From positions 1 through 64,000 of the forward strand of contig JAUZNZ010000023.1 of assembly GCA_030706735.1 (NCBI GenBank): a stretch of DNA of 64,000 bases. Direction: 5' to 3'. The translations under genes were made by a program, and so were the position numbers. The stretch comes from Bacteroidota bacterium. Lineage in GTDB: Bacteria; Bacteroidota; Bacteroidia; Chitinophagales; Chitinophagaceae. The notes beneath the pieces were generated by a model. It had not been told where the DNA came from. It was given only the letters and a program-made list of their open reading frames with translations, and did no database searches. This document shows, in pieces, positions 3,513 to 35,968 of the stretch (within the stretch, counting starts at the first letter, position 1; every line of letters starts with the position of its first letter).

Positions 3513-3541
3513 TGTACCCCAACCGAAGGCTTGATACTAGT
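3513..3541 (-). promoter_or_regulatory. 29-bp element, copy 1 (upstream of ABC ATPase)
   Basis: Plus strand TGTACC-N16-TACTAGT; on the minus strand this is ACTAGTA-N16-GGTACA, preceded by a T-rich stretch. Two more copies with the same 16-base spacing lie at 17964-17992 and 35940-35968, each upstream of a minus-strand gene. The layout resembles a -35/-10 promoter of an alternative sigma factor. Here it is about 127 bp before the ATPase start. Confidence 0.6.
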
Positions 3542-3586
3542 GGGAATAAAAAAAACTAAATTATTGTGAATGGGAAGTAGCCGCCG

Positions 3587-4153
3587 TCAGGTAAAGGCGG
3601 CGAGCACCAGGCGGAGATTGCGAAGCGAAAGTCGCAGCGTCCTGAGCGCTTTATTTATGTGATTGCGAGCAGTATGCGGCGATATATCCAATTGCCGGGC
3701 GATCTCCTCCACTGAAAGTCCTTCCCTGCGTCGCAACAGATAAACGACCTTGCACTGTTCGGGCAGCGATTCGATAACTCCATTTATATATTCTTCAAGA
3801 AAACGCGCCGTGATCGCCGACTCGTCGTCGGCAACGGTTACCGGCGCCAGATGCTCTGCGATCAGCTCCTGCCGGCGTCTCGTCCGCACCAATGACTTGA
3901 AAACACTGAATCTGACCGAGGTAGCCAGATAAGCCCCCAAATCCTGTATCGAGACCGCGCTACGTTTATCCCACAACCGGACAAAGATCTCTTGCAGAAC
4001 CTCTTCCGCGATGGTTTTGTCCTTACAGTAATGATAGGCAATGGCAAACAGCTTCTCCCAATAGCGCTCATAGATCGCGGTAAACGCTTGCTCGTCTCCC
4101 CCGGTCAGCAATGCCGCCAGGCGGGCATCGGAATATGTATCGTAGAGCCTCAC
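3587..4153 (-). CDS. ECF-family RNA polymerase sigma factor without an adjacent anti-sigma gene
   Basis: A 188-aa sigma-70 factor of the extracytoplasmic-function type. Region 2 is near residues 27-65 (AIYERYWEKLF, EEVLQEIFVRLWDKR) and region 4 near 133-180 with the HTH EEIARQLDISPHTARNHI. The start is GTG (4151-4153); no other in-frame start precedes region 2. Unlike the second sigma factor in this window it has no FecR partner beside it. It lies between the outer-membrane protein gene (56 bp upstream) and the ABC ATPase operon (200 bp downstream). It could recognise the 29-bp element found just after it, but nothing in the sequence proves that. Confidence 0.88.
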   Translation of the reverse strand: MRLYDTYSDARLAALLTGGDEQAFTAIYERYWEKLFAIAYHYCKDKTIAEEVLQEIFVRLWDKRSAVSIQDLGAYLATSVRFSVFKSLVRTRRRQELIAEHLAPVTVADDESAITARFLEEYINGVIESLPEQCKVVYLLRRREGLSVEEIARQLDISPHTARNHINKALRTLRLSLRNLRLVLAAFT

Positions 4154-4160
4154 ACTACCC

Positions 4161-4190
4161 TAAAGGTAGCAAAAAAGACATGGGAACAAA
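4161..4190 (-). promoter_or_regulatory. Candidate Bacteroidota-type promoter of the ECF sigma gene
   Basis: On the minus strand TTTG (4187-4190) and TACCTTTA (4161-4168) are separated by 18 bases, close to the Bacteroidota consensus TTTG-N19-TAnnTTTG with one mismatch. The start site would fall at or within a few bases of the GTG, giving an almost leaderless mRNA. CTACC and GGTAG around the -7 box form an inverted repeat that could be an operator. Confidence 0.35.
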
Positions 4191-4209
4191 ATTACCCACT
4201 GCATGGAGG

Positions 4210-6915
4210 TCAGGAAAATTTCTTAAAATGCCACAGCAGGCTTAGGAGCAAGATCCTTCCCGGGATCTCGCTTTGCGTCGTACTGAGGACTCCCGGTGCT
4301 ATAACCTGATTGATATTCTGCGCATTGTTCAATAGCCCGAACGCATCAAGCCTCAGCTCGAACGCCCGTTTCCGGCCTAACTCCTTGCTCGCACCGGCAT
4401 CCCACAGCGACACCGGCGGCGCCGGTAGTGTTCCCGACAGCCATTGTATCGAATAATAGGATGATATCGTCACTGCGCCAGGGAGCGTGTACCTTGCCTG
4501 GAGTGAATAGCCTTGTACCCAGCCAGTCGTGTTCTGAGCCGGATTGGCCGAATACCGGTTGGACGTAAATTTCACCGAGCCTTGCGCGTCGATGTACAAC
4601 TCTTCAATCGGGTGCAGATTGAGTTTGCCCTTCAGACCGCCTCCAGGCGAATACACTACGTTTTGCGTCCCATTCACAAAATTGACGCCCCGGCCATACT
4701 GACCGGTCAGCCCTACACTCGCATTCGCTTTCTTCTGATCCCCGACCGGAAATCCATAGCTCAATACAGCCGATGCATTCCATACCCCGCCTGCATTCAC
4801 ATATCCCTGCTGTTGTATCCCTCCGGCCAGTATAGTCGTTGATGGGACAATAGCGCGATCAGAAAAGCTGCCATTCAACCCCAGTTGCCAGTTTTGCGCG
4901 TTATGCGCATCGAAGGTCGAATAGTATATGGTTAGCATGCGGGTCAGCGTTTGCTCGAGCTTCGGGTTGCCTATGTGTACGAGGAAAGGGTTGGTTGGGT
5001 CGGTCACCGGTTGCAGCTGCTGTAGCGTTGGTATCGTCGTGTGCGTTGAAAAAACGAAATTAATACTTTGCCCCTTGCCCGGAGTATATAAAAGCGTGAT
5101 CAATGGGTACCAGGCGGTTTGCCGGATGCGTAACAGCGAATCATTCGACCGGTTCAGATTGTCGAGCGTCATGAATTGGCTTGTCAGCCCCGCCTGCAAC
5201 ACGAGCTTATCCGTTGTTATGTTATAGGCCATGCTAACGCGCTGGGTCGTACTGGTCGTTGTAAAATGATTGCTCGTTGTCGCATCGGGTTTATCATAGG
5301 CTCCGGTGACGCTGTCATAGTCGTTCGATGACCGGTCGCTGCGCCCGACAGACCGATCTACCTCATAATTGCCTATCAGTGAATGTACCTTGTCAAGACG
5401 CTGGTCCAAATACACCCCTGAAACAAAATCGTCATTGTGGCTGGTTTGCCCGATAACCTGATTGATCTGTGTTCTGCCCACAGGCCTCCCCGCACTATCG
5501 AATTGGACCAATTCCGAAAGGGTTGTCTGCGGCTGCCGGTTCCGGTCGCTGGTCTGCCTGACGTCGATCACCAGCATCCCCCCAGATCGCAACCGCTGAC
5601 GGAGTATTAACATGTTATTGAAATGAAAGTTCGTCGTTTGCGCTGTATTGGCAGTCTGACCCCGGTTTAAAGTATAGCTGTCCGGACCTTTCAGCGTAGA
5701 TAGCGTCGTGGAATCGCTACGATTGATATTGGACGAGTTGCCGGTCCAATCTGAAGTGAGAGAAAGGAACAGCAGGGAATCGGGCTGATACCGCAAATAG
5801 CCATCGCCATGCCAGGTCCGGCCCGAGCTGTTCGAACGGCTGGTCGTGTGGGATAAAAGGCTGGAATCAGTAAGCGCCGTCTGCGTAGTATTCACTTCAT
5901 CGAGTACAGTCCGGTTCCCGCTGGAGCCGGCATTGATCGTATATGGCAGGGGAGGATCCTGAGGTCCTGCCAGATCCAGCTCCAGACTGTTTAGTTGCTG
6001 TCTTCCCGCCCCTCCGGCGCCACTGTGCCGGTCGGTACCGACAAACTGATCATTGAGATTGTTGACATTACCCGACGCCATGATTTGGGTCTTGCCAAGC
6101 ATCATTGCGTCACCTCCCGCCGTATAACTTCCAGTCAAGGACTGAGGATTGGCTGCCGCGCCAGATCCGGTTCCCGCATACAGCTTCCCTACGTAACCCT
6201 GACGACGGTTCCTTTTCAGCCGGATATTTAGTGTCTTGGCCCCACTCATCTCCTTTATTCCGGCCATCTTCGCCAGGTCACTCTGGGTGTCGAAGACCTC
6301 CACCTGATCTATTATTTCCGCCGGCAACTTTTGCGTCGCTATCCTTGGGTCGCCCAAAAAAAATACTTTCCCATCGATATACACCTTATCCACCTTTTTA
6401 CCCTGCATCGTCACATTGCCGTCCTTATCGATCTCGATACCCGGCAGCTTGCGCAGCAGGTCTTCGAGCGTCGCATTTGGCGGCAACGGGTAGGCGCTTG
6501 TGTTAAAGGCAATCGTGTCATGCCGAACGTTGGCCGGTGGAATACGCGCCGTGACTACCACGGCCACCATGGCCGAATCCGATCGCTGCATCATAAGACG
6601 AATACGCGCCGTTCCGGCGGCGCCAAGCGACACGCGAATAGTATCTGGCCGGTACCCCAGGTAGGTTGAGACGATCCGGTATTCACCCGGGGAAAGCCCC
6701 CGGAACAGAAATCCCCTGGGGCCGTTGCGACGCACGGCAAAAAGTTTCGCCGGCCCGGAAGGGCCAAGCAAAAACAGATTTACGGTGGCATTTTCCATGG
6801 CCTCGTTACTCACGCTATCGCGCACCATTCCCTCGATCGCGCCTGCATCCTTTTGCGCCACTGCCGCACGGGTCAAGAATGTCCCGATGATAGCAAGGAT
6901 TAAAGCCCTTTGCAT
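4210..6915 (-). CDS. Outer-membrane beta-barrel protein with carboxypeptidase-like regulatory domain
   Basis: A 901-aa secreted outer-membrane protein. I use the ATG at 6913-6915, which gives a signal peptide (MQRALILAIIGTFLTRAAVAQ) and a 7-bp gap to the upstream peptidase; a longer frame to 6969 would overlap that gene. After the signal come a carboxypeptidase-regulatory Ig-like domain (about residues 26-105, GAIEGMVRDSVSNEAMENA), a TonB-plug-like domain (about 130-220, LEDLLRKLPGIEIDKDGNV and VDKVYIDGK) and a large barrel of the OMP_b-brl_3 kind to the C-terminus. No SusD follows it. Its position right after five peptidase genes suggests a role with peptide substrates or products, by inference. 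Confidence 0.82.
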   Translation of the reverse strand: MQRALILAIIGTFLTRAAVAQKDAGAIEGMVRDSVSNEAMENATVNLFLLGPSGPAKLFAVRRNGPRGFLFRGLSPGEYRIVSTYLGYRPDTIRVSLGAAGTARIRLMMQRSDSAMVAVVVTARIPPANVRHDTIAFNTSAYPLPPNATLEDLLRKLPGIEIDKDGNVTMQGKKVDKVYIDGKVFFLGDPRIATQKLPAEIIDQVEVFDTQSDLAKMAGIKEMSGAKTLNIRLKRNRRQGYVGKLYAGTGSGAAANPQSLTGSYTAGGDAMMLGKTQIMASGNVNNLNDQFVGTDRHSGAGGAGRQQLNSLELDLAGPQDPPLPYTINAGSSGNRTVLDEVNTTQTALTDSSLLSHTTSRSNSSGRTWHGDGYLRYQPDSLLFLSLTSDWTGNSSNINRSDSTTLSTLKGPDSYTLNRGQTANTAQTTNFHFNNMLILRQRLRSGGMLVIDVRQTSDRNRQPQTTLSELVQFDSAGRPVGRTQINQVIGQTSHNDDFVSGVYLDQRLDKVHSLIGNYEVDRSVGRSDRSSNDYDSVTGAYDKPDATTSNHFTTTSTTQRVSMAYNITTDKLVLQAGLTSQFMTLDNLNRSNDSLLRIRQTAWYPLITLLYTPGKGQSINFVFSTHTTIPTLQQLQPVTDPTNPFLVHIGNPKLEQTLTRMLTIYYSTFDAHNAQNWQLGLNGSFSDRAIVPSTTILAGGIQQQGYVNAGGVWNASAVLSYGFPVGDQKKANASVGLTGQYGRGVNFVNGTQNVVYSPGGGLKGKLNLHPIEELYIDAQGSVKFTSNRYSANPAQNTTGWVQGYSLQARYTLPGAVTISSYYSIQWLSGTLPAPPVSLWDAGASKELGRKRAFELRLDAFGLLNNAQNINQVIAPGVLSTTQSEIPGRILLLSLLWHFKKFS

Positions 6916-6922: not shown

Positions 6923-9667
6923 TCACTTAAAGGTGACCGTAATCGGCTTCCTATGTTTGAGCGCATCAATAGTTTTTTGCGCAGCCGGCGTCAGCAGCCC
7001 CGGTCCAGGCTCAACGCCGGCCGGCTCCAGTTCCAGCCCGTCATCGACCTGTTTCATCGTTGCAGGGATGCCCTCCACCATCCATTTAGGCGCAGGAGCG
7101 CCTTTCAGGTAATGGTCGAAAAACTGTGTTGACCGGAGCAAATAGTCCAGTACCTCCGGACGGCTGAATTCTCCGTGTCCTTCCCTGTCATATTGCAGCA
7201 TCCAGACCTTCTTCCCCATCCTGCGAAGCGCTGTAAAAAAACCCAAACCCTGAGTAAACGGAACTCTGAGATCCTTTTTGTTTGCGACCAGCAATATTGG
7301 AGTCTTCACTTTATCAGCATAATAAATTGGAGAGTTGTGGATGTAATAATCAGGATGTTCCCATAAGGTCGTACCCATTCTACAAATACCGGTCTCATAC
7401 CAAAAATTTGGCATCATGTCATCAATCAATTCCAAATAATTACTCACAAAATCAGTTATCCCTGCCGAACCACAGGCTGCAGCAAAAGCGTTGGTATGAC
7501 TTACTAAAAAATCCGTTTCATAACCTCCAAAACTATGCCCCTGCAGCCCCATGTGTTTGCTGTCAACATAGGAAAGGGTTCTCAATAAGCCGACCGCGCC
7601 CATCACCGTTTGAAGCGCACGTTCACCGATCTTGCCCAGTGCATAATGAAAGTCCGGGGTAAATATCAGGTAGCCATGACTCGTGAACCAGGCTATGGCC
7701 AGATCGCTCATACCCCCTCCTGAGCCCAGATTTAAGGTATTGTGGTAGCAATTGAGAAAGTCGGTTTTGCGTTCGTAATAGTGAAAGATCACCGGATACT
7801 TCTTGCGCGGGTCAAAGTCCTCCGGCAAATAAAGCACGCCCTGTTCATCGCGTCCGTCCGAAGTCTTAAAGTTGATAAGTTTTGATCGTGTCCAATTGTA
7901 TGCCTTCTCGGGGTGCACTGCACTCACCGGCAGAAACGTTTTAAGATCCCGTGTGACAAAATAGTTCGGCGACTCCGATATGCTTTCACGGTTCACCAGG
8001 CAGACCGAGGCATCCGACGCCTTAACGATAGGTTTTCCAATGCCTGAGAACTGCGCGTAATAGCCATATTGCCCCATGGTCAGCTTTTGAGGAATTTGTT
8101 CCTTGTGAAGCACAATGCGACAAAATCCGTTGTCCTTATTCCGGTGGTTGAATGCAGCCAGGATCAACGTGTCGCCCATCAATCGTTGACCGGGGGGATA
8201 GCCGGTAGCCAGACAGAAGGTCGTATTTGTTTTTACTCCATCGAAATGCGTAAGATTGATCGGTGGCCTCTGGCCAAGCGGGTCCAATTCCCACAGGTCA
8301 TAGTAATCCTGAACAACTACGGCCTTATCATCCGGCAACCAGGCAATGATAAACGCCAATCGCGAGTTTATGTTACCTCCCTCATCATTCTCCAGTCTAT
8401 TGATCGAGATAGGAACTTTAGCAGTAAGAGAACGAATGATCCCGGTAGAAAGATCATAGATAGAAACTCCGGTTGACGGGTCAAACAGCTCCAGAAAACG
8501 TCCGGAAGGAGAAAAGTGAGACGCCCGATATTTATCGATACGCGCGGTTTTACCGGTACGAATGTCGAGAACGTCATATTGCCATTGGGCCGCTTCCGAC
8601 CAGCCCCTTTCGCCGAGTCCGCCCTGGGTCTTGTCCAACAATACGTATCTTTCATCAGGGCTGATCTTTGCTGAAGTTTGTCCTTCCTGCTGCAGCCGGC
8701 GGATCGGGAAATCACCCGTTAGCGATATGACGGCCAGATAATCCCGACTCCGCTGAAAAGCCACTTCGTTTAATTGCTCCGCCTGAAACTTAACGTCCCG
8801 ATAGCTCCAGACATCCACCGATACTTTATTGGGGTCCGCCTTTGGCGACTCCTTCGTTAGATTGAAGAACAGCATACTGCCGTCTTTGGAAAAGTTCAAC
8901 AGCTTCCCAATAGTAAGCCCGCTGTCGACGCCCTTAAATTCAGCATTCGCAATCTCCATCGCTTTATCCATGCCCATCTTGTAATAGCAAATTCGATTCT
9001 TACCTTCCCGATCTTTTGTACTGAACGCGACCTGCCCTCCATGACTATCCGTCACCCAGTCGGCAGTCGCCCCCCCGTCCCAGATGACATGCTCCTCCTT
9101 ATTTTCCAGATTGATCAGGCTAATCCTTTGGCGATCCCTATCTTGAATAGTCTTCTTCAGCAACCTTTTCCCGTCTGCGGAAAGCAGCCAGGCATCAACA
9201 TCATTATAACTATCCCCATTCCCCGCACTGCGAATATTCAGCTGTCTGGCGTTTTTCGAATAGTAAAGCAGGCATTCTTCACTACCTCTCATAAACAGCT
9301 GATAAGAGCTAACACCCGGGAGGTTCTCCTCGTCATCCGTACCCAATCTGGCTATATGCAGCGTCCCGTCCTTTTGGTAGACCACCCTCCGGCTGTCGGA
9401 TGTGAATTCAGCCTTTTCCACTCCTGGTAAGCGTTTCTCCCAGCCCGAAAAACAGGCTTTCAAAAAATAGACAGGATCCCTGTCAGGAACCCAACTTCTA
9501 TTTACAAGGTAGCCTGCGTAGCTACCATCCGGGGTCAAAATAGGCTTCTCATCTACAGACGGCCAATGATACAAAACACCTGTATCCAAAGCCGGCTTCT
9601 GCGCCAGTACCTCCCCGCAACTCAACATTACTACAAGGCTGCTATAAACAATTCTTTGCAATCCCAT
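6923..9667 (-). CDS. S9-family (prolyl oligopeptidase-like) serine peptidase, array member 1
   Basis: A 914-aa exported serine peptidase: signal peptide ending VLAQ, a long seven-bladed-propeller-like region (about residues 25-600), then an alpha/beta-hydrolase domain. The nucleophile is Ser712 in GHSFGG; Asp follows in NKKDLRVPF and His in REGHGEF, so the triad looks complete. S9 enzymes cut short peptides, often after proline; the exact specificity is unknown. It is the last of five tandem paralogues. Its start lies 5 bp after the stop of the next one, and its own stop is 7 bp before the outer-membrane protein gene, so it belongs to a tight operon. The first 20 residues match those of array member 2 almost exactly, while the propeller is much more diverged. 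Confidence 0.9.
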   Translation of the reverse strand: MGLQRIVYSSLVVMLSCGEVLAQKPALDTGVLYHWPSVDEKPILTPDGSYAGYLVNRSWVPDRDPVYFLKACFSGWEKRLPGVEKAEFTSDSRRVVYQKDGTLHIARLGTDDEENLPGVSSYQLFMRGSEECLLYYSKNARQLNIRSAGNGDSYNDVDAWLLSADGKRLLKKTIQDRDRQRISLINLENKEEHVIWDGGATADWVTDSHGGQVAFSTKDREGKNRICYYKMGMDKAMEIANAEFKGVDSGLTIGKLLNFSKDGSMLFFNLTKESPKADPNKVSVDVWSYRDVKFQAEQLNEVAFQRSRDYLAVISLTGDFPIRRLQQEGQTSAKISPDERYVLLDKTQGGLGERGWSEAAQWQYDVLDIRTGKTARIDKYRASHFSPSGRFLELFDPSTGVSIYDLSTGIIRSLTAKVPISINRLENDEGGNINSRLAFIIAWLPDDKAVVVQDYYDLWELDPLGQRPPINLTHFDGVKTNTTFCLATGYPPGQRLMGDTLILAAFNHRNKDNGFCRIVLHKEQIPQKLTMGQYGYYAQFSGIGKPIVKASDASVCLVNRESISESPNYFVTRDLKTFLPVSAVHPEKAYNWTRSKLINFKTSDGRDEQGVLYLPEDFDPRKKYPVIFHYYERKTDFLNCYHNTLNLGSGGGMSDLAIAWFTSHGYLIFTPDFHYALGKIGERALQTVMGAVGLLRTLSYVDSKHMGLQGHSFGGYETDFLVSHTNAFAAACGSAGITDFVSNYLELIDDMMPNFWYETGICRMGTTLWEHPDYYIHNSPIYYADKVKTPILLVANKKDLRVPFTQGLGFFTALRRMGKKVWMLQYDREGHGEFSRPEVLDYLLRSTQFFDHYLKGAPAPKWMVEGIPATMKQVDDGLELEPAGVEPGPGLLTPAAQKTIDALKHRKPITVTFK

Positions 9668-9726
9668 TTTGATCAGTTGAATATTAAAGTGATCGGCTTC
9701 CTATTCTTCAGCGCATCAACTGCCTT
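9582..9726 (-). repeat. 145-bp near-identical direct repeat across the member 1/member 2 junction
   Basis: Covers the start of array member 1, the 5-bp spacer and the end of array member 2. It matches 12341-12485 with about four mismatches over 145 bp, offset by 2759 bp. The flanking coding sequence on either side is far less similar. Confidence 0.85.
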
Positions 9727-12426
9727 CTGGGCCTCCGGCGTTAATAACCCCGGTCCAGGCTCAACACCGGCCGGTTCCAGTTCCAGCCCATCATCGACCT
9801 GTTTCATCGTTGCAGGTATTCCTTCCACCATCCATTTCGGGGTCGGCGCGCCCTTCAGGTAATGATCGAAGAATTGGGTTGAGCGCAGCAGGTAATCAAT
9901 GCGCTCTTTGCCGTCGACTCCATGCCCTCCCTTATCATATTGCAGCATCCAGACTCTTTTCCCCAGTCTGCGCAAGGCTGTAAAAAACTCGAGCCCTTGT
10001 GGAAAAGGTACATTCCCGTCCCGCTTGTTATCGACCAGCATCAAGGGGGTTGTTACCTTGTCGGCATAAAAGACCGGCGAGTTCTTAATATAGCGATCTG
10101 GCCGCTCCCAAAGCGTACTCCCCATGCGATCCTGGCCAAATTGAGCGTAGTCCGGCGTACTGGTTACAGAATAATCGACTGAAACCATGCTGCTCACCAT
10201 GTCGGAGACTCCGGACGAAGAGATGGCGGCAGCAAAAACATGCGTGTGCGTTATCAGGTAATTCGTTTCCGATCCGCCATAGCTATGACCTTGTATGCCC
10301 ATATGTCGGCCATCCACGAAAGGAAGGGTCTTTAACAGGTTTACCGCACCCATAATCGTTTGCACTACACTCTCGCCGGGTGAACCAAGAGCAAAGTGTA
10401 TATCCGGGACAAATACGAGGTAGCCATGACTCACGAACCACGGCACATTCAGCTCGCCATTGGACCCCTGCGCCGGAGGATACAGATGCAGTTCAGCTGT
10501 CCTCCGCTGGTAATATTGGAAGATCAGCGGATACCTCCTGTTCTGGTCAAAGTCTTTGGGCTGGTACAAGATCCCCTGCTCCAGACGTCCATCGGTCGTC
10601 TTGAATGAGATCAATTTGGAACGTACCCAGTTGTAATCCTTCTCGGGATACACATCGCTAACCGGGGCAAACGTCTTAAAATCCTTTGTCGCGAAATAGT
10701 TGGGCGACTCGTACACCCGCTCCCGCATAACCAGGAAAACCTTTGCATTCGCCGCCTTGACCATGGGAACTCCCGGGTTCAAATGAACCTCCTGATAGGG
10801 AATATAATAGGCATATGGCCCCATGATCAGCTTTTGAGGCACTTGCTCCCTGTGCAGTACGATACGGTAAAAACCGTTGTCTTTCGTTTGATGATCGAAT
10901 GCATTTAATAGCAAGGTATCCTCCTTCACGACCCGGCCCGGCGGATATCCGACGGCCAGCGTAAACGTCACCCCGGTTTTTGCTCCCACGAAATGCGTAA
11001 GATTGATTGGTGCCTTTTTACCCATCGGATCCAATTCCCACAGATCATAATAATCCTGAACCACGACACCCTCATCACCCGGCAGCCAGCCGATAATTCC
11101 AATTCTGCCATGAAAATCCTTATCATCACCCTCATCATCCGCGACCTTTGAACAAATGTCGACTTTTTCAGTAAGCGGACGGATGACCCCAGTGGCTAAT
11201 TCATAGGTAGAATAATCAGCGGTCCTCGTATTTAAGAGCTCTAAAAACCGTCCGCCCGGGGAAGAATGCACTATTCTGTATCCATCCAACCTTGTCCTTC
11301 TACCGGTCCGGGTATCCATCAGATCGTATTTCCATTGAGCAGCCGAAGACCAGCCCCCTTCCCCCTGCGGCCCGACACCTTGAATGCTGTCGAATAGCAC
11401 AAACCTGCCTTCGGCTTTCCCTGAAAGAGCTTCCCCATCCTTTTGCAGCTGCACAACCTTGAAATCCTGATCCAAGTGGAAAACGGACAAATAATTATGC
11501 TCCCGACGCAAGGCCGAGGCATTATCCTCCTGTTGACGGGATTGCAGCTTGGCATCCCTGTAGCTCCAGACATCCAACGCTACCATTTGGGGATCCGGCT
11601 TGGGTGATTCTCTTCTTAGGTCAAAGAACAACATGCTGCCGTCCGTCGAAAAATTCAATAGTTTCCCAATTTGGAGTTCAGGATCGATCCCTCTGAGACG
11701 ATTAACCCCGATCTCCGTCGCCTTATCCTGACCCTGTTTGTAATACCAGATATGGTTTCCTCCCTTTTCATCTCTTGTGCTGAATGCCACCCGCTCGCCG
11801 CTGTTGTCCATTAGCCAATTGTCAGGGGGGGCACCCTCCCATATCATATGTTCCTCTTTACTCTCCAGATTAACCAGACTGAGCACCTGGTCAGCGCTAT
11901 CATGAATGGTCTTTTTAAGGAATCGTTGACCATTTGCCGACAGCAACCATGCATCAACGTCATTATAGCTATCCCGCTTGCGAATGCCACGGATAGTCAG
12001 CTGCTTCCCCGCCTTTGAATAATACAATAGGGATTCCTCACCACCACTTTCGACCATTTGATAAGCATTGATACCGTCAATCTGCTCATCCTCGTCTGTG
12101 CCCAATGTGACAATATGAAGTGTCTCTTTTTGCATGTATATCGCCCTGTGACCATCAGATGTGAAGTCCGCCTTTTCTACACCAGGCATCCGTTTTTCCC
12201 AACTCGAAAAAGTCGCCTTAAAAAAATAAACCGGATTCCGGTTGGCAGCGAATTTATTGCTCACCAGGAAGCCTGCATAATTGCCATCGGAGCTCAAAAT
12301 AGGTTTCTCCTCTACAGATGGCCATCGGTATAGCACACTCGTATCCAAAGCCGGCTTCTGGGCCAGTACCTCCCCGCAACTCAGCATTACTACAAGGCTG
12401 CTATAAACAATTCTTTGCAATTCCAT
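9673..12426 (-). CDS. S9-family serine peptidase, array member 2
   Basis: A 917-aa exported peptidase with the signal sequence MELQRIVYSSLVVMLSCGEV and cleavage after VLAQ. The nucleophile is Ser715 in GHSYGG, with Asp in NKRDGNVPF and His in DKGGHGV. The last 60 residues (from HYLKGAP to the C-terminus) are nearly the same as in array member 3, while the propeller region is roughly 55-60% like member 1. The difference in conservation points to exchange between copies at their ends, or selection for varied substrate access in the propeller. It is 5 bp from each neighbouring peptidase gene. Confidence 0.9.
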   Translation of the reverse strand: MELQRIVYSSLVVMLSCGEVLAQKPALDTSVLYRWPSVEEKPILSSDGNYAGFLVSNKFAANRNPVYFFKATFSSWEKRMPGVEKADFTSDGHRAIYMQKETLHIVTLGTDEDEQIDGINAYQMVESGGEESLLYYSKAGKQLTIRGIRKRDSYNDVDAWLLSANGQRFLKKTIHDSADQVLSLVNLESKEEHMIWEGAPPDNWLMDNSGERVAFSTRDEKGGNHIWYYKQGQDKATEIGVNRLRGIDPELQIGKLLNFSTDGSMLFFDLRRESPKPDPQMVALDVWSYRDAKLQSRQQEDNASALRREHNYLSVFHLDQDFKVVQLQKDGEALSGKAEGRFVLFDSIQGVGPQGEGGWSSAAQWKYDLMDTRTGRRTRLDGYRIVHSSPGGRFLELLNTRTADYSTYELATGVIRPLTEKVDICSKVADDEGDDKDFHGRIGIIGWLPGDEGVVVQDYYDLWELDPMGKKAPINLTHFVGAKTGVTFTLAVGYPPGRVVKEDTLLLNAFDHQTKDNGFYRIVLHREQVPQKLIMGPYAYYIPYQEVHLNPGVPMVKAANAKVFLVMRERVYESPNYFATKDFKTFAPVSDVYPEKDYNWVRSKLISFKTTDGRLEQGILYQPKDFDQNRRYPLIFQYYQRRTAELHLYPPAQGSNGELNVPWFVSHGYLVFVPDIHFALGSPGESVVQTIMGAVNLLKTLPFVDGRHMGIQGHSYGGSETNYLITHTHVFAAAISSSGVSDMVSSMVSVDYSVTSTPDYAQFGQDRMGSTLWERPDRYIKNSPVFYADKVTTPLMLVDNKRDGNVPFPQGLEFFTALRRLGKRVWMLQYDKGGHGVDGKERIDYLLRSTQFFDHYLKGAPTPKWMVEGIPATMKQVDDGLELEPAGVEPGPGLLTPEAQKAVDALKNRKPITLIFN

Positions 12427-12485
12427 TTTGCTCAGTTGAATATTAAAGTGATCGGCTTCCTATTCTTCAGCGCATCAACTGCCTT
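12341..12485 (-). repeat. 145-bp near-identical direct repeat across the member 2/member 3 junction
   Basis: Partner of 9582-9726. It includes the start of array member 2, the spacer and the end of array member 3. The first 53 bases of each peptidase 3' end (9673-9725 and 12432-12484) are identical. Confidence 0.85.
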
Positions 12486-15173: not shown

Positions 15174-15178
15174 TTCTA

Positions 15179-17935: not shown

Positions 17936-17940
17936 ATTAA

Positions 17941-17961
17941 TCAGTTGAATATTATAGTGAT
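17941..17961 (-). pseudogene. Remnant of an S9 peptidase 3' end before array member 4
   Basis: The minus-strand sequence ATCACTATAATATTCAACTG, running into TGA, matches the ends of members 2 and 3 (ATCACTTTAATATTCAACTG) with one difference. It sits 5 bases before the member 4 start, where an intact peptidase would end in the other junctions. The rest of that peptidase copy is gone and the 29-bp element abuts the remnant. Confidence 0.7.
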
Positions 17962-17963
17962 AT

Positions 17964-17992
17964 TGTACCGCAACCAACCCATCGCTACTAGT
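17964..17992 (-). promoter_or_regulatory. 29-bp element, copy 2 (upstream of S9 peptidase member 4)
   Basis: TGTACC-N16-TACTAGT on the plus strand. It is especially close to copy 3 (35940-35968): both also share ATATT before, CGCAA after TGTACC, and GTCGAC at the TACTAGT end. It is 28 bp before the start codon, so if it is a promoter the leader is very short. The two copies lie in different reading frames of the open extensions around them, which argues against coding homology. Confidence 0.62.
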
Positions 17993-26544: not shown

Positions 26545-26568
26545 AGACGACCAATCTTGAGCCCGGTT
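26545..26568 (-). promoter_or_regulatory. Candidate ECF-sigma promoter of the SusC operon
   Basis: On the minus strand AACC (26565-26568) and CGTCT (26545-26549) are 15 bases apart, close to the -35 AAC and -10 CGTC boxes of many ECF sigma factors, and lie 80 bp before the SusC start. ACCGGG and CCCGGT form an inverted repeat around the spacer. The likely activator is the sigma factor at 27935-28525. Confidence 0.42.
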
Positions 26569-26603
26569 TTTTATTTTCGGCTTGCCACTTAGAAATTTTT
26601 TCC

Positions 26604-26632
26604 AGGAAGGTTGTCTAAAAGGAAGGTTGCCG
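26604..26632 (-). promoter_or_regulatory. Direct repeat and shared element downstream of FecR
   Basis: AGGAAGGTT occurs twice on the plus strand (26604-26612 and 26620-26628) with a 16-base period. The second unit with its flanks resembles 3467-3486 upstream of the ABC ATPase. Direct repeats at this spacing can bind dimeric regulators; function unknown. Confidence 0.35.
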
Positions 26633-26655
26633 GCCGTAGCCAATTATATTAGGAT

Positions 26656-27867: not shown

Positions 27868-27934
27868 ATTCACTCTATGAGACCATCATTTCGATAGTTA
27901 GAACCATCGGCTCGAAAAAATTTTCAAATGAAAT

Positions 27935-28769: not shown

Positions 28770-30281
28770 TCAGTCAGTACCTGAGTAGTACAGGCTAACC
28801 GAGGTATACCTCGCAGGCACAGGCTCCCTCGCCGACTTCCCATGCTCGATTCCCTGCCAGATCGATCGCTCAAAAGGAATCTTATCACTAAGATAAAACC
28901 GGTATCCCCCGGTAAGCCGCCTCGTCTTGTTATAGTACATACACCCCGATATGGGAAAACTTCTTGCCGTATCCCATTTCCCATGCAGATCGTACCATCC
29001 CCCGTTAAAGTAATCTTCCGAGCCGGTCCCATGTATGCGGAAAATACCGTCGATCGCTGTCGAATCATCACCCTCAAAAAAGACCGGTAGTCCCGGGCGC
29101 TCCCCCTGTGCCCATAGCATCGTGCCCACATAATGGCCCTTGCCACTTGTGTCCAGGAAAACATGCCAGGGATCGTTTTCTGTCAGCGGATGGCTCACAT
29201 AGTGAACCCGGAACTTCCCCTCCAAATGCGGGTCTCTTCGTTCATTCGTATAGTACACCGTCGCGCTCAGCCGAATAGGCATCCCCGAACCCTTATAGAG
29301 CAGCCGTACCCGTATCTTCCGATCAAACGGCATCGGAAACCAACTGTAACAGGTATCGCCCCGTACGCCAGAAAGGACGGAGCGCATCGACGGTCTTCCA
29401 TCCGCGAAACCAAAAAAAGCAGCGACCGGTACTAACACTCCTGGTATACTTTCGTCATCCTGGCGAATTTCGACCCAAATATCCCTTACACTGTCTCCCA
29501 AAAGTTTCGCCCCGGTCAGTTCGATTCCCCGGATTCTGCCCGGCGCCCTCAGATTGACCAACAACTTCGATGCCCCTTGTGTTAACACAACCTCCGCGGC
29601 TTTTTTCTCACAAGACGGCGCGACTTCGTCATGAAAATCCCCTTCCTGTGTCCACGTCGTATGAACCATTTCGAAGGCCTTCTGTTCAACTTCATTCAAT
29701 TCAGGCCGGAGTGCCTGCACCACCGTACCGGTTGGAAACGTTTTATACTGCACCTGATAATATCGTAGCTTCTTTCCCCTATCTATAATACGGCAAAACC
29801 GTTGGAAAAGGATTGGGAAATAGCAATAATAGCCCCCGGCCCCCTGGCCGCACAGCGGTGAGAGAAAGGGTTTCACCTTCCCGCTGAACAAATCCATATA
29901 GCAAACCGACATGCAAGGCCGCGCCGAATCGTCAACGAAAATGTCCAATGTATCCGTCGTCGGCGTCGGCGTCCACATCCGGTTGATCACTCCCGCACCA
30001 TAAACCTCCGCCATGACCAGGCTGCTATCCGGATTCCGGCGCACGAAGGAATAACGTCCCGAACCGCCGTCGTCATTCCCACCCGTCGGGTCATATGAAG
30101 AGATTTGCCGTTCGGTACAGCCCGTAAGAAATACCGGCAGTTGCGCCGGGTCATACAGCGCTCTCAGCTCATGCGTAAGATCGATTATCTGACTATTCCG
30201 GCTCTCTAAAGGCCTTTCCTGGCATAATCCGGCTGCCGGCACCATAAGCGCCAGCAAGAGAATAACTTTAATATTATACAT
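28770..30281 (-). CDS. DUF2961 / GH172-type glycoside hydrolase, exported
   Basis: A 503-aa exported protein, using the ATG at 30279-30281 (a TTG two codons upstream is less likely). The signal peptide is MYNIKVILLLALMVPAAGLC. DUF2961 motifs are visible: GVINRMWTPTPT with GAGGYYCYFPI in the first half, and HGTGSEDYFNGGWY near residue 430, ending with ARYTSVSLYY. Characterised members (GH172) are oligomeric jelly-roll enzymes acting on furanosides such as difructose anhydride or D-arabinan. Which sugar is cut here is unknown. It is the last gene of the ATPase-permease-permease operon (28 bp after the permease), an unexpected partner for a transporter. Confidence 0.82.
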   Translation of the reverse strand: MYNIKVILLLALMVPAAGLCQERPLESRNSQIIDLTHELRALYDPAQLPVFLTGCTERQISSYDPTGGNDDGGSGRYSFVRRNPDSSLVMAEVYGAGVINRMWTPTPTTDTLDIFVDDSARPCMSVCYMDLFSGKVKPFLSPLCGQGAGGYYCYFPILFQRFCRIIDRGKKLRYYQVQYKTFPTGTVVQALRPELNEVEQKAFEMVHTTWTQEGDFHDEVAPSCEKKAAEVVLTQGASKLLVNLRAPGRIRGIELTGAKLLGDSVRDIWVEIRQDDESIPGVLVPVAAFFGFADGRPSMRSVLSGVRGDTCYSWFPMPFDRKIRVRLLYKGSGMPIRLSATVYYTNERRDPHLEGKFRVHYVSHPLTENDPWHVFLDTSGKGHYVGTMLWAQGERPGLPVFFEGDDSTAIDGIFRIHGTGSEDYFNGGWYDLHGKWDTARSFPISGCMYYNKTRRLTGGYRFYLSDKIPFERSIWQGIEHGKSAREPVPARYTSVSLYYSGTD

Positions 30282-30309
30282 CGTCAATCAAATCTAATCC
30301 AAACCTTCT

Positions 30310-32613
30310 TTACCGCCTTCTTCTGATCAACAACAACACCCCTCCCATGAAAAGCAATATCCCGGGAAGAATGAACAGCAGAACCGTTCTCATGCCCGCC
30401 ACCTCTCCAAGACTAATCGTCGTATGATTATCCGGCTCCGTCGCATGATAAATATCCAGTGGAAATTGCCCCTTCGAAAACCATTTGAAGATCTCCTTAT
30501 TCAATTCCCATAATTTCTTTGGGACGCCGCTAAACTCGCCATCACTTAACATATCTGCATCGCCCCATACCATGATACGCTGCTGCTTACCATGAATACT
30601 CCGCTCAAGCGTCAGCGCGATCGGAAAGGCTCCCTTTTGATCGCCATGGCTCGGGTCGTTGGCTATCTTTGCAGCCGTGGAATCGAAAGTGCCGATATGA
30701 TTCCAGGTATTAGCCGCATTGGTAATAATAAACGGCCTTATTTGAAATGGTCCCTTCGCGTCATATACAAGGCCAGCCGCTCCATGGGTCGTCAGTTGAG
30801 CGTCATCACCGATCAATTGTTTCAGCACCTTGGAATAACCAGCAGCCTCCGGCGCAAAATGTGTGATCAGAAAATCAGGAGTAAATTCCGGGTTATCGCT
30901 TTCCGCCAAAAGCCTGCCCTCCATGAACCGAACTCCCAGCGGATTGATCAATGGGTTCATCAGTTCCCGATGCGAAGGCTCACCTAAAATCCAGCAGTCG
31001 CCTCCACTATCAATATAGCGATGTATCTTACCCAACTCATTTGATTTCAACGGTAAGGTCGGGTCAGCGACAATCAATAATGAAATATCGTCCGGTATGT
31101 CCGCGCTATCGATATCGATTTGTCTGAAATCAAAGCCGTGATTGACAACTGACTGGCGTTCCACACTCTTATTCATCCTGCGGTTATAATCCCTCTCCTT
31201 GACTCCGTGCTCTTCAGCCACACGCTCGTTGTGGCCCGTAAGGAATGCAACACGCTGTGCCGGCACGGTCATCAGCTTAAAAGCATCCATCATCTCTTGT
31301 TCCCCCGGATCCACTTGCGGATCATCGAAAATCCCTACCAATGCGGTCTTATCACCTACCACAAACTGCCGCATGAACCGGTTGCCCCTTGACCTCAAAT
31401 CCAAAATTTTGTGGATAGAGTCAGGAGACAAAACGTCGCTCATATCGAATCCCTTACTATCTGCCGCAATTTCCGCCAGATCCTTCAGAGATACACCGGG
31501 ATGCTGTTTGAATAGCCATCCTGTCGCGGCGCAGGAATCGTAGTAGTAGGTGTAATCCACCATAAACCCATGTTGGAGGAACCGCTGATACTTTTCGTAG
31601 AACTTATAGTCGTCATTGCGGGCAGCCGGCATACCGAACCTGGCGTCATCGCCCAGTATGTTCACATAGGTATGTACGGTTATGGGGGGCATATCTTTAA
31701 GCAGGGCCTGACTCGTGGCTGTGATGGTCTGGGATCTTGTCCGGGTCGCATCGAAATACGCCATCAACGCAGGTCTTGCCGCAAGCCAGTTCAAACCGAT
31801 AGCCAAGAAAACCAAGCTCGTATAGAGAGCAGCCCGAAAAGAAAAAGGACGTTGATGACGCTGATAGTAAAGCCGCATATAGGTAAATCCCGTAAAAAGG
31901 GCGCTCATCGTCAAAAAATAGGCTATCTGCTTGGTCGAAATCAACCCTCTCATCATCTGATCGGTACGCCCTCTAATGGCCAAAAAGGAGGAAACTTCCC
32001 GAAACCAGGACATGTTCTGACCGATTTGCCCGATGAAATTCAATAAGGCGAGCGCTGCAAACGTATATAACGCCGCCACCGGCTGGTAACTGCTTAGAGA
32101 CGACATGAAAAGGCCAATGCTGGAATAGACAACGCACATCAGGAAAATCCCCAATATCCCGGACAATAAAAGACCGGTATTGGCATCGGGGAGATAGGAA
32201 GCCGAAACCAATACAAAGATCAATAGAAAGGAGATCAGCAACAAACAATAGCTAAGAATGGCGAGAAACTTTCCGGTGATAATCTCCACAATGCTGACGG
32301 GTGAAGAATATAATAACTTGATCGAGCCGCTGCTCGTCTCACGCCCGATCAACCCCATCGTCAATAACGGAATATAAAGATAAAGCCGGTTCTGCACTTG
32401 CGACAGCACTCCTTCACCCCTTGACCCTAGAAAAAGATATTGCGTCAGACCAGGTGACTTGCTGCCTAATGACGAGAACATTTGACATCGGGCAAGCTGA
32501 TCGGCAAGATCAAGTCCAGCTTGTATAATAAAAATAATGAGGACCAGCCACCCGATCGGCGAATAAAAAAGAGACCTAATTTCCGTACGGGCAATTCTTA
32601 TGATTGATTTCAT
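30310..32613 (-). CDS. GldF-GldG fusion ABC permease, second of a tandem pair
   Basis: A 767-aa membrane protein of the same build as 133-2445. The N-terminal ABC-2 permease part has YSPIGWLVLIIFIIQAGLDL as first membrane segment and ETSSGSIKLLYSSP. The GldG-like extracytoplasmic domain (DSGGDCWILGEPSH, VWGDADMLS) follows from about residue 265, and the C-terminal helix ends LLIRRRR. It follows its sister permease by 11 bp. Two fused permeases after one ATPase suggest a heterodimeric membrane domain, one copy each of two similar chains, with the ATPase used twice; this is inference from gene order. Confidence 0.85.
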   Translation of the reverse strand: MKSIIRIARTEIRSLFYSPIGWLVLIIFIIQAGLDLADQLARCQMFSSLGSKSPGLTQYLFLGSRGEGVLSQVQNRLYLYIPLLTMGLIGRETSSGSIKLLYSSPVSIVEIITGKFLAILSYCLLLISFLLIFVLVSASYLPDANTGLLLSGILGIFLMCVVYSSIGLFMSSLSSYQPVAALYTFAALALLNFIGQIGQNMSWFREVSSFLAIRGRTDQMMRGLISTKQIAYFLTMSALFTGFTYMRLYYQRHQRPFSFRAALYTSLVFLAIGLNWLAARPALMAYFDATRTRSQTITATSQALLKDMPPITVHTYVNILGDDARFGMPAARNDDYKFYEKYQRFLQHGFMVDYTYYYDSCAATGWLFKQHPGVSLKDLAEIAADSKGFDMSDVLSPDSIHKILDLRSRGNRFMRQFVVGDKTALVGIFDDPQVDPGEQEMMDAFKLMTVPAQRVAFLTGHNERVAEEHGVKERDYNRRMNKSVERQSVVNHGFDFRQIDIDSADIPDDISLLIVADPTLPLKSNELGKIHRYIDSGGDCWILGEPSHRELMNPLINPLGVRFMEGRLLAESDNPEFTPDFLITHFAPEAAGYSKVLKQLIGDDAQLTTHGAAGLVYDAKGPFQIRPFIITNAANTWNHIGTFDSTAAKIANDPSHGDQKGAFPIALTLERSIHGKQQRIMVWGDADMLSDGEFSGVPKKLWELNKEIFKWFSKGQFPLDIYHATEPDNHTTISLGEVAGMRTVLLFILPGILLFMGGVLLLIRRRR

Positions 32614-32624: not shown

Positions 32625-34919
32625 TTACCTCCTACGGCGGATAAGGAGTAGCAATCCCCCCGAGAAAAGCAGCAGCAGAGGCAGACCGAATTGAAAAATT
32701 ATCCTCAATCTGGGCATGGCGTTGCGTGTGATTCGCAAGGTCGTATCCCGGGAAGGAGGCGTATCCGTATCGATGGGATAGGTGTCATTTGACAGCCATC
32801 CGAATAAGGATAAGGCCCAATCTGCATTTTGATCAGCGATATTCTGTTTTCTTAATACTCCACTGGAAAGACAGTCTGCATCGCCCAGTATGACTATCCG
32901 TTGCTGCCTGTCGCCAAAGATTCTTGTGAGGCCCATAGCCAAAATATACTGCCCTTTTTTATCTCCTTTGGCGGGATCAAAACTTACATAGCCACTGTCT
33001 GTATTCGTGGGTCCTGTCCGACTCCAAGCAGACGAATCCGATAACAGCAGAGGGTGGCTTTGAAAAAGGTGAATTGAATCTGCCTGTAGTACCGCCGTGG
33101 CTCCCGGCATCATAATGGGATATTCTCTTTCCATCAGCGGCATAAACCCCGGCGATAGCGAGCCCGTCAGGCGGTCGATGCGGCCCAATATGAGATCTGG
33201 TTCCAGCTTGTGAGAACCCTGCAATAGCTTGCCCTCTGCCAGTTGCACCCCAAGCGTCTGCAACAGCGGATTAAGAATAACCTGCCGTCCCGGCTCTCCC
33301 GCGATCAGCAGATTGCCGCCCGCATCGATATAGCTTTTTATCCTGGCTTCCGCCACCGGAGAGATATCCGTTTTTGGATCGGCGATCACCAACACTTTTG
33401 CCGTAGCAGGGATATCCGAATGATCCAGATCAAATTCTTTGATGTCAAATCCCTGATTGATCAGGGCGACACGGTTATAAGTTTGTGTAGAGAACTGTTG
33501 ATAATTTTGTGCAGCCGGGTTGGTAAACCGGCGCTGCTGATTATTGGTCGCTACTGCCACCTCGACAGGACCTGCCAGCAACGCTTTTATGGATGCGGCT
33601 ACCTCATTCTCCAAGGGGATGGTCATCGGATCACGGAACATCCTGAGCCAGGATCTTTTGCCATTGAATTCAATAGACCGCACAAATGTGTTCTTTTCTT
33701 CCGAAAGATTGAGTTGTGACCGAATGGCAGCCGGAGAAAGGATGTCCGAAAAGGGCACCCCCGTACTCGCCGCAATACCGCGGACGATGGCCGAATCAGA
33801 AAGCCCTCTATGGGAGGACCGGAGATCGAGCGTATTTTCACAGCTATCATAGTAGTACACGTAGTTAATATCCAACGGTCTCCGTAAGAATCGCTGATAC
33901 TGCTCATAAAAAGCGAGGTCTTCATTCTTTGCTTTTGGCAGACCATAATGGGACATCGGGTCCATGAGGTTTACATAGGTATTGATCTTCAATGGGCCGT
34001 TCACTGATTGGAGGATTCCTTGCGAAGTTGGTGAAATGGTTCGCATCTTGCTCGCAGTCATATCCAGGTAATAAATGTGTCCCGGTCTCGAAGTCATCCA
34101 TCCAAGGCTAAGTATGACGACACCCAAGAGACTGTAATAGGCTATCCTTTTTGTCATCGGTATCCGATATTGTCGAAACCGAAAATAGAATATGCTGATA
34201 CCTATGGCACAGGCGCTGATCAGCAAATAATAAATAACGTCCTTCGAGCTAATGATCCCCTGTATAAAATGAGTCGATCTCCCGCTAATGGCAAGAGTAT
34301 TGGTTATGTCACGTAGAAAAGGAACCGATTGCCATAGGCCGCCGATATATTGCAAAGCGGCCAATACGGTAAAGGAGGATATCGCGGCGATCACCTGGTA
34401 AGAGGTAAAGCCCGAGATCATCAGCCCAATTGCGAAATAGGCACAGATCACCAGGTAAACCCCTAATATACCCGACAGCAGATATGCAAAATCTGCGTGA
34501 ACAATGACGCCACAGGCCGCCAGTGCAATTAGGAGCAATATCAGAATAAAGCTGAGACCGAAAACGGCGATGCCCAAAAACTTCCCGAGAATGATTTCAG
34601 TGTAGCTTACCGGAGAGGATTGCAGCAACTTTATAGAGCCGCTGCTCGTCTCACGGCTAATCAGCCCCATCGTCAGAAGGGGCACGTAGAAATAGAGGTA
34701 CTCTCTTACATTGGCAAACACGCCCGATGACCCCCCAAATACTACCTGTGTAATTTCAGCCTCGGACACATGTAGCTTTATCTGGGATACAACAAATTGC
34801 AAATGATCCAGAAAGGACATGGAAACCTGAAAGGCAAAAACGGTGAGAGCTACCCAGGCGATCGAGGAGCAGAACAAAACTTCCAGTTCTACTTTGGCGA
34901 TCTTGACTATTGTTTTCAT
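32625..34919 (-). CDS. GldF-GldG fusion ABC permease, first of a tandem pair
   Basis: A 764-aa permease. The frame extends to 34970, but the ATG at 34917-34919 gives MKTIVKIAKVELEVLF, matching the N-termini of the related permeases, and leaves a 7-bp gap to the ATPase stop; the longer form would overlap it. Membrane segments occupy the first ~260 residues (YFYVPLLTMGLISRETSSGS), then the GldG-like part with AGGNLLIAGEPGRQ and VILGDADCLSSG, and a C-terminal membrane helix ending RRRR. It is clearly diverged from the downstream sister copy, so the pair was not made recently. Confidence 0.85.
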   Translation of the reverse strand: MKTIVKIAKVELEVLFCSSIAWVALTVFAFQVSMSFLDHLQFVVSQIKLHVSEAEITQVVFGGSSGVFANVREYLYFYVPLLTMGLISRETSSGSIKLLQSSPVSYTEIILGKFLGIAVFGLSFILILLLIALAACGVIVHADFAYLLSGILGVYLVICAYFAIGLMISGFTSYQVIAAISSFTVLAALQYIGGLWQSVPFLRDITNTLAISGRSTHFIQGIISSKDVIYYLLISACAIGISIFYFRFRQYRIPMTKRIAYYSLLGVVILSLGWMTSRPGHIYYLDMTASKMRTISPTSQGILQSVNGPLKINTYVNLMDPMSHYGLPKAKNEDLAFYEQYQRFLRRPLDINYVYYYDSCENTLDLRSSHRGLSDSAIVRGIAASTGVPFSDILSPAAIRSQLNLSEEKNTFVRSIEFNGKRSWLRMFRDPMTIPLENEVAASIKALLAGPVEVAVATNNQQRRFTNPAAQNYQQFSTQTYNRVALINQGFDIKEFDLDHSDIPATAKVLVIADPKTDISPVAEARIKSYIDAGGNLLIAGEPGRQVILNPLLQTLGVQLAEGKLLQGSHKLEPDLILGRIDRLTGSLSPGFMPLMEREYPIMMPGATAVLQADSIHLFQSHPLLLSDSSAWSRTGPTNTDSGYVSFDPAKGDKKGQYILAMGLTRIFGDRQQRIVILGDADCLSSGVLRKQNIADQNADWALSLFGWLSNDTYPIDTDTPPSRDTTLRITRNAMPRLRIIFQFGLPLLLLFSGGLLLLIRRRR

Positions 34920-34926
34920 GTGGGGA

Positions 34927-35859
34927 TTATGCTTTACCGCGTTTTGAAAGCCGGGCAAATACCTCATCAAGAGAATATCTTTCCAAATGTATTTCCCACA
35001 ACTGCCACCCGAGTTCTACGCTGAGCCTCACCAACGTCTCGCTGATGTTCCTGGGCTGCCCATTGAACCATATCCGCATCGAATCATGGTCTACTGCCTC
35101 AACCTGTCTGATTCCATGGATAGCTGCCAATTCCGAGGCGAGCGGGGGGCGACTGAAACGGACTACCAGGCTATCCGGCATGATATAGTTATTGAAAGCA
35201 TCCATGGTGCCGGCGAACACCATTCTGCCCCCTTCGATCATTTTCACCTCCTGGCAGGTCGCCTGTACCTCGGATAAGATGTGCGAGGAAAAGATGACGG
35301 CTTTATCTTTCCCGATCTCTTTGATGAGATTGCGCATTTCATAGATTTGAACGGGATCCAGACCGTTGGTAGGCTCGTCCAGAATAACCAGTTTAGGTTT
35401 ATGGATAATGGCCTGGGCAATGCCGACCCGCTGACGGTAGCCGCCCGAGAGGTTCCGGATCAGCCGCTTGCTGAAATGAGCGATCCCACAGCGCGATTTC
35501 ACCTCTGCAAGCGCATCCGGGATCTTCCCGGCATCCATTTTTCGCATAAAGGCGCAATGGATCAGGTATTCGTCCACCGTCAGGTCAAGGTGCAAGGGCG
35601 GCGTCTGGGGCAGGAATCCGATCATTTTCTTTGCCTCCTCCGGCCTCTTCCCCAGGTCGATGCCGTCGATGAGGACGCTGCCTTCGGTCTGACTAAGCAC
35701 CCCGCTCATAATGCTCATAGTTGTGGACTTCCCGGCTCCGTTAGACCCCAGCAGGCCCATGACCCCCGTCGTTTCAATGTCAAAATGAATATCTCTTATG
35801 GCCCAATCCCTGGTATACTTGTGCGACAAATGCTGAACCTGAACGATAGTATTTTTCAT
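34927..35859 (-). CDS. ABC transporter ATP-binding protein, GldA-like (second copy)
   Basis: A 310-aa ATPase. I use the ATG at 35857-35859 (MKNTIVQVQHLSHKYT), which lines up with the N-terminus of the paralogue at 2445-3386; the open frame to 36009 runs through the 29-bp promoter-like element and is unlikely to be coding. Walker A is GSNGAGKSTT, signature LSGGYRQR, Walker B LVILDEP and the switch His is in SSHIL. It heads an operon with two permeases and the GH172 gene. The element at 35940-35968 is 81 bp upstream, and the same element precedes the other ATPase gene. Confidence 0.88.
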   Translation of the reverse strand: MKNTIVQVQHLSHKYTRDWAIRDIHFDIETTGVMGLLGSNGAGKSTTMSIMSGVLSQTEGSVLIDGIDLGKRPEEAKKMIGFLPQTPPLHLDLTVDEYLIHCAFMRKMDAGKIPDALAEVKSRCGIAHFSKRLIRNLSGGYRQRVGIAQAIIHKPKLVILDEPTNGLDPVQIYEMRNLIKEIGKDKAVIFSSHILSEVQATCQEVKMIEGGRMVFAGTMDAFNNYIMPDSLVVRFSRPPLASELAAIHGIRQVEAVDHDSMRIWFNGQPRNISETLVRLSVELGWQLWEIHLERYSLDEVFARLSKRGKA

Positions 35860-35939
35860 GCTTACCCTTTTCATTTGCCGATTATATATGCATCCCGCTT
35901 TTAAATAACACCTTGGGTCGGCTGGCATACCTGCAATAT

Positions 35940-35968
35940 TGTACCGCAAACAAGCCGTTAATACTAGT
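35940..35968 (-). promoter_or_regulatory. 29-bp element, copy 3 (upstream of second ABC ATPase)
   Basis: TGTACC-N16-TACTAGT on the plus strand, with ATATT before it and CGAC after it as in copy 2. On the minus strand it reads as ACTAGTA and GGTACAATAT with 16 bases between, positioned like -35 and -10 boxes 81 bp before the ATPase start. Confidence 0.62.

Follow-up and report, generated by a model that had tools for sequence, protein, structure and literature searches.

A 29-bp element, TGTACC-N16-TACTAGT, recurs in a Bacteroidota genome ahead of two ABC transporter operons and a run of S9 peptidase genes, raising the question of what reads it and whether these genes share a regulator. The element lies in a stretch of 64,000 nucleotides, here called the window (positions 1-64,000 of contig JAUZNZ010000023.1, labeled C17, from Bacteroidota bacterium assembly GCA_030706735.1). 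As predicted from sequence, the element is very probably a promoter read by RNA polymerase carrying ECF1, the ECF sigma factor encoded beside copy 1, within a four-promoter regulon in which a FecR protein would hold the sigma and a SusC protein would bring about its release. The first-pass annotation had placed three copies at 3513-3541, 17964-17992, and 35940-35968, and these coordinates are exact. The genome-wide search it had proposed (5.05 Mb, 100 contigs) returned no fourth exact match, and each of the three sites lies ahead of a minus-strand gene; the reversed motif, used as a control, had 0 matches in the 5.05-Mb genome.

The conserved part of the element extends beyond the 13 bases first reported. 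On the minus strand, the three window copies have in common C-N-ACTAGTA-N3-A-N4-T-N-G-N-TTG-N-GGTACA-N-TAT, whereas the 12-base spacer after ACTAGTA differs among them at nine positions. With up to three mismatches allowed, ACTAGTA-N12-TTG-N-GGTACA-N-TAT finds only these three copies in the window, nothing in 100 dinucleotide shuffles of the window, and one additional match in the whole genome, copy 4 on contig C2 (Table 1). For the loose form, comprising the 13 fixed bases with as many as three mismatches, the window's 11 matches do not clearly exceed chance: shuffles average 6.6, and 9 of 100 reach 11. A sequence-only model trained on the four copies necessarily recovers these and adds a single weak, partial match in the genome (E 0.32), in a scan whose first pass scored 150 of 594 candidates. 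The distance from GGTACA to the start codon is 126 bases for copy 1 (ATG 3386, ABC ATPase), 28 for copy 2 (ATG 17935, S9 peptidase), and 65 or 80 for copy 3 (ATG 35874 or 35859, ABC ATPase). The listed open reading frames starting at 18025 and 36009 read through the element and are too long.

Table 1. Features of the window and of contig C2 discussed in the text (positions refer to the window unless C2 is given).
Feature	Position	Strand	Basis or remark
Window contig end	1..141		Shares its 141 bp exactly with the start of contig C2
permA, ABC-2/GldG-like permease	133..2445	-	Pfam; 73%-identical partner on contig C2
ABC1, ABC ATPase	2445..3386	-	Pfam
Copy 1 (-35 ACTAGTA, -10 GGTACAGTAT)	3509..3541	-	45 bp past the sigma stop codon
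ECF1, ECF sigma factor, helix SPHTARNH, proposed reader of the element	3587..4153	-	Pfam Sigma70_r2, r4_2; homologs; helix
TACCTTTA, like the housekeeping -7 box (TAnnTTTG)	4161..4168	-	By eye; 7 bp ahead of the ECF1 GTG
Outer-membrane beta-barrel protein (OMP_b-brl_3)	4210..6915	-	Pfam; start re-examined
S9 peptidase	6923..9667	-	Pfam
S9 peptidase	9673..12426	-	Pfam
S9 peptidase	12432..15173	-	Pfam; start corrected from 15341
S9 peptidase, first after copy 2	15179..17935	-	Pfam; signal-peptide-like start by eye; start corrected from 18025
Copy 2	17960..17992	-	Heads the S9-S9-S9-S9-OMP run ending ahead of the sigma gene
Window's other FecR	26656-27873		
ECF2, second ECF sigma	27935-28525		
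DUF2961 protein, last gene of the copy 3 run	28770..30287	-	Pfam
GldG-like permease	30310..32613	-	Pfam
GldG-like permease	32625..34970	-	Pfam; ATG 34919 likelier start
ABC3, ABC ATPase, first after copy 3	34927..35874	-	Pfam; start corrected from 36009
Copy 3	35936..35968	-	Heads ABC ATPase, GldG-like permease, GldG-like permease, DUF2961
LytTR response regulator	53670-54416		
Copy 4	C2:5115-5147		3 mismatches; T-rich stretch ahead

The three reported copies are thus real, but the count fell short by one. Copy 4 ends 8 bp, and its GGTACA 12 bp, ahead of a gene for a protein with FecR and FecR_C domains that has no adjoining sigma gene. This FecR gene is followed by those for SusC (with an STN domain), SusD, an S9 peptidase, a DUF4397 protein, a thioredoxin-like protein, and another S9 peptidase, a set that nearly matches the window's own ECF2-FecR-SusC-SusD-DUF4397-S9 run. 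The C17/C2 overlap is exactly 141 bp, like that of eight other contig pairs, so all four copies probably fall within one same-strand stretch of ~41 kb. Both ends of 40 of the 100 contigs, 80 in all, were compared; among the matches listed, with self-matches of one short contig removed, 141-bp exact overlaps form nine one-to-one end pairs, C17/C2 included, and two other pairs overlap by 36 and 44 bp; the C17/C2 join sequence was found at no other contig end among those 80. With the join, the gene order reads S9 run, OMP, ECF1, copy 1, ABC1, permA, permA', two MutS-domain genes, copy 4, FecR, SusC, such that a transporter operon and the two MutS-domain genes lie between the sigma and FecR genes, which are ~8.6 kb apart across the overlap. 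The products of these two consecutive genes between the transporter genes and copy 4 (L039:2338-3747 and 3744-5072) match MutS domains III and V only.

The sigma gene next to copy 1 had been described as an orphan and a candidate activator, and our comparisons favor the second description over the first. ECF1 is a 188-aa protein with Sigma70_r2 and Sigma70_r4_2 domains above their cut-offs, which places it among ECF (group IV sigma-70) factors. The ECF1 homologs fetched first, 40-56% identical and drawn from 20 loci in 19 family genomes, are directly followed by a FecR homolog in every case (20/20), and the best match of these FecRs is the C2 FecR in 16 loci, the window FecR in three, and split in one. 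The first 60 residues of FecR are the part expected to hold the sigma. Over these 60 residues the C2 FecR outscores the window's other FecR in 18 of the 19 loci with a readable FecR (L082 has none), with L092 slightly reversed (53 vs 55); whole-length scores likewise favor the C2 FecR in 18 of 19, the exception being L080. ECF1 is therefore probably not an orphan, with the C2 FecR on the overlapping contig as its likely partner. Among 33 genomes of its own genus, no ECF1 homolog above 46% identity was found besides ECF1 itself. The TACCTTTA box ahead of ECF1 resembles the housekeeping -7 consensus TAnnTTTG given in the cited sections of PMC9723704 and suggests constitutive sigma expression; as the GTG start follows this box directly, the sigma is probably always made.

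A different ECF sigma, such as ECF2 or a paralog on contig C28, might instead read these promoters, given that the genome contains 18 ECF-like matches and that ECF2 lies within the same gene set. However, the element is missing from the gap after ECF2, the C28 sigma (helix SSKSVEYY) is followed by a gap with a variant of its own, TTTAGGGAT...GTGTAC, and copies 1 and 4 respectively start 45 bp past the ECF1 stop codon and precede a FecR resembling the partners of the ECF1 clade. This survey of own-genome gaps took in 15 of the 18 loci as listed, among which L029 is a loose match at a different spacing, and we regard a reader other than ECF1 as improbable.

The argument for ECF1 draws chiefly on its relatives, where the clade forms sigma-FecR units, often with SusC/D, with the predicted promoter between the sigma gene and FecR. 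Most of the first 20 relatives' gaps contain an element of the kind (C)TAAGGGTA or CAGGGTA followed by (T)GGGTACW at the spacing seen in our genome. Seventeen of the 20 gaps score above 98% of shuffles, the exceptions being L078, L090, and L079, in the last of which the FecR start is misplaced inside the element; the score and its weights, for this set and for a later 93-locus set alike, were fixed after inspecting the gaps. A wider homolog scan of named genomes covered the best 80 of 287 loci, from genomes that, judging by their titles, we take to belong to Chitinophagaceae, Sphingobacteriaceae, and Dyadobacter, with the Dyadobacter loci carrying the element with a variant -10. Despite a score penalty on that distance, the boxes lie 20 nt apart in 33 of the 34 loci in the 93-locus set that score at least 20. 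In this set, the gap of Chitinophaga filiformis reads CTAAGGGGT...TATGGTACT.

Among the matches listed, the wider set comprised 160 distinct sigma loci, of which 144 belong to relatives. Of the 109 loci of helix class xE[ASGY][HY], 35 have AGGG and GGTAC separated by 16 nt and 15 have them separated by 15 nt, and no other separation between 5 and 40 nt is seen more than three times; the 35 loci with other helices yield a single case at 15 nt and none at 16 nt. The element in its strict form is found in 57 of the 109 loci, against a mean of 1.2 and a maximum of 5 in 200 mononucleotide shuffles, and is missing in the other 52, many of which keep AAGGG with another -10. When the GGTAC nearest FecR was located blind to the -35, AGGG lay 22-23 nt upstream in 45 of 48 xE[ASGY][HY] loci, a test that left out the 86 of 138 loci with no GGTAC in the gap as well as 6 of 144 with no readable FecR start; of two GVEAN-helix loci with GGTAC, one has AGGG and one does not. 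Judging from these gaps, several ECF recognition-helix classes appear to be served each by a distinct -35/-10 pair ahead of FecR, and the sigma-FecR gap may reveal the promoters of many Bacteroidota ECF sigmas. By eye, the same gap in loci with TVENQ or TVDNQ helices shows GTGGGGGAT or GTAGGTGAT with an ACTTAT-like -10. In the closest relative, L077 (G062:C480), we also noted by eye that a ~100-bp stretch before the sigma gene (1782) recurs, slightly changed, after the sigma stop at 2348 and before the FecR promoter.

A matrix made from 34 relatives alone performs poorly on our own copies, its best hit among them being copy 3 at 1.5 bits (rank 5), with the others outside the best 14 listed. 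This failure would be expected if our genome's -35 has changed, and what ties our element to that of the relatives is therefore its location, its spacing, the -10, and a portion of the -35. The difference lies where the sigma itself differs: the ECF1 helix is SPHTARNH, as against SPKTVESH and similar helices in relatives, and the -35 core is AGTA at all four of our sites but mostly AGGG in relatives, where helices of the form TVE/TAE-x-H pair with AGGG. TARNH recurs in just one other sigma of the set, that of G050, which has GGTA at the same distance (ATTGGTACA vs ATTAGTACC in copy 4) and is present in one of six genomes of that genus, and G062, with helix TATNH, has AGGA. Three species with deviating helices and without AGGG, set against 45 of 48 loci with it, give a Fisher p of 0.001 uncorrected for kinship; in these three species, then, the predicted -35-reading helix is different where the -35 box is different. 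Taken together, the four copies heading genes of a single linked set, the same element in the relatives' gaps, and the match between helix and -35 make the element most likely the ECF1 promoter. They also strengthen the -35/-10 reading of the first-pass annotation, with the same spacing and -10 recurring between sigma and FecR in relatives, and its proposal of a regulon shared by exporters and peptidases.

These same observations bear on whether the element could serve as an operator, bound by the LytTR protein or some other regulator, and not as a sigma promoter. ACTAGT is palindromic and a LytTR gene is indeed present in the window, but relatives keep both the spacing and the sigma-FecR location without the palindrome (CTAAGGG), the altered box tracks the sigma recognition helix, and 17.7 kb separate the LytTR gene from the closest copy. 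An operator is, if anything, a shade less probable than another ECF reader, and LytTR, previously listed as a second candidate activator, gained no support. Least probable of all, and very unlikely, is that the copies are mere remnants of recent duplication of promoter-bearing segments with no common regulation: the ABC/permease operons do resemble one another in kind, and a duplicated segment would bring its own promoter, yet spacer and flanks differ across the four copies while both boxes are kept, and copy 2 heads an S9 gene instead of an ABC gene.

Under the ECF1 promoter reading, the size of the regulon sets our genome apart from the relatives tested. Eight relatives from two genera were searched for their local version, CAGGGTA-N13-GGGTACA. 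Seven have a single exact site, which lies between sigma and FecR, and the eighth carries it there with one mismatch. Outside the gap, sites with one mismatch number 28 in the eight relatives, vs four for the reversed control, with one more in our own genome. Of these 29, 22, including the one in our own genome, have assigned loci and seven have none; 21 of the 22 overlap open frames of at least 150 codons, for which reason these are taken as chance, although the exact gap site L275 was also flagged as overlapping a frame, owing to a FecR frame extending upstream. A single site appears to be the state of the relatives tested, to which our genome would have added the S9 peptidase run and two ABC operons; one site looks to be the rule in the two genera examined, and four here an expansion. 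Copy 1, after the sigma gene, occupies the usual place of the FecR promoter, although the next gene is an ABC gene instead of FecR, and copy 4 directly precedes FecR; the transporter operon between them looks to have been inserted along with a promoter copy.

In the family, the own-copy model R1 gave matches at E of 0.01 or below in seven of 393 other genomes, all partial (best E 0.0026), under strict filters that may lose weak matches. The exact own pattern, searched across 33 genomes of the genus, had one match each in three others, which we judged to be chance; two lie inside long open frames, and the third, in G019, is intergenic and lacks the extended bases. AAGGGTA-N13-TGGTACW was also tried on 394 family genomes, where its 34 matches in 32 genomes are, by eye, close to the ~31 of the reversed control and hence uninformative, the pattern being too strict for many relatives.

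From these observations we infer sigma binding, signal, substrate, and operon extents as follows. ECF1 would be made from its housekeeping-type promoter and held by the FecR encoded on the overlapping contig, acting as anti-sigma. When the STN-bearing SusC meets its substrate, probably peptides, FecR would be relieved, and the freed ECF1 would fire four promoters, each consisting of a -35 of ACTAGTA or ATTAGTA and a -10 of GGTACA, with the start codon 12-126 bp past GGTACA. Its putative targets would be the FecR-SusC-SusD-S9-DUF4397-Trx-S9 genes, the S9 peptidase run ending in the outer-membrane protein, and the two ABC/GldG-like transporter operons. Since gaps within the S9-S9-S9-S9-OMP run are only 5-7 bp and the run stops 56 bp ahead of the sigma gene, transcription perhaps reads on into that gene, which would add a positive loop. 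We further propose, tentatively and with slightly less than even confidence, that the sigma helix and the -35 changed together at four sites, insulating a private regulon, that an exporter operon came in between the sigma and anti-sigma genes, bringing a promoter with it, and that, more broadly, the sigma-FecR gap reveals many Bacteroidota ECF promoters whose -35 the region 4.2 helix may predict.

Judged by its predicted parts, the system is of the FecI/FecR type; its promoter is defined, its sigma and anti-sigma genes are split apart, and its regulon is enlarged. A FecR-domain partner is indicated by the domains and N-terminal likeness of the C2 FecR, an STN-bearing TonB-dependent receptor is present in the C2 SusC, and copy 4 is the predicted promoter ahead of the regulator and receptor genes; adjacency of sigma and FecR is absent. 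The FecI/FecR/FecA system of E. coli likewise combines an ECF sigma, a FecR-domain regulator, and a TonB-dependent receptor, with a sigma-dependent promoter ahead of transport genes. In the cited sections of PMC9249621, fecIR are in tandem, with promoters ahead of fecA and fecI, whereas here a promoter would precede FecR, a transporter operon separates sigma and FecR, and four target promoters are predicted. The ECF/anti-sigma/SusC units of B. thetaiotaomicron, as described in the cited part of PMC3878776, similarly bring together a sigma, a two-domain anti-sigma, and a SusC-like porin; the same part calls prediction of ECF-controlled promoters challenging and in need of transcription start data. 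Unlike in those units, comparison between genomes leads us here to propose a promoter, and the genes are peptidases and transporters. ECF sigmas can be numerous in Bacteroidota genomes; B. thetaiotaomicron has 50, of which SigW-1 also acts outside its own sigma/anti-sigma unit, with candidate promoters showing TGTT near -10 in place of our GGTAC (both from passages of PMC12596196). The SM6 promoters of Flavobacterium psychrophilum are another Bacteroidota class ascribed to ECF sigmas, with a CGT box at -10 in the cited sections of PMC9723704 and GGTAC here. Our results would thus give a concrete promoter for a sigma clade of Chitinophagaceae and Sphingobacteriaceae, with a variant -10 in Dyadobacter, offer a route to such promoters from sequence, and supply natural helix/-35 variants on which specificity could be tested. 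One expanded regulon would also tie nutrient uptake, peptidases, and exporters together.

Several other features of the region stood out. Five S9 peptidase genes form a tandem array (window 6923-20797), and the near-identical starts of three of them, M[EG]LQRI[AV]Y[CS]SL, suggest duplication. The gene for a 910-aa protein at 39299-42031, which had no Pfam match at E of 0.001 or below, adjoins an M48-like peptidase gene. Finally, a leader of ~170 nt is conserved between the FecR-SusC gaps of two paralogous clusters (window 26466-26655, minus strand, and L039:6293-6476), and the predicted folds of both place a hairpin at the same position. The folding energy is no better than that of shuffles for the window leader (z 0.24) and mildly better for L039 (z -1.8), and the window leader had no Rfam match at E of 1 or below. 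The first bases of this leader (CAACC-TCCTTTTAGA) appear again near 3475, between copy 1 and ABC1.
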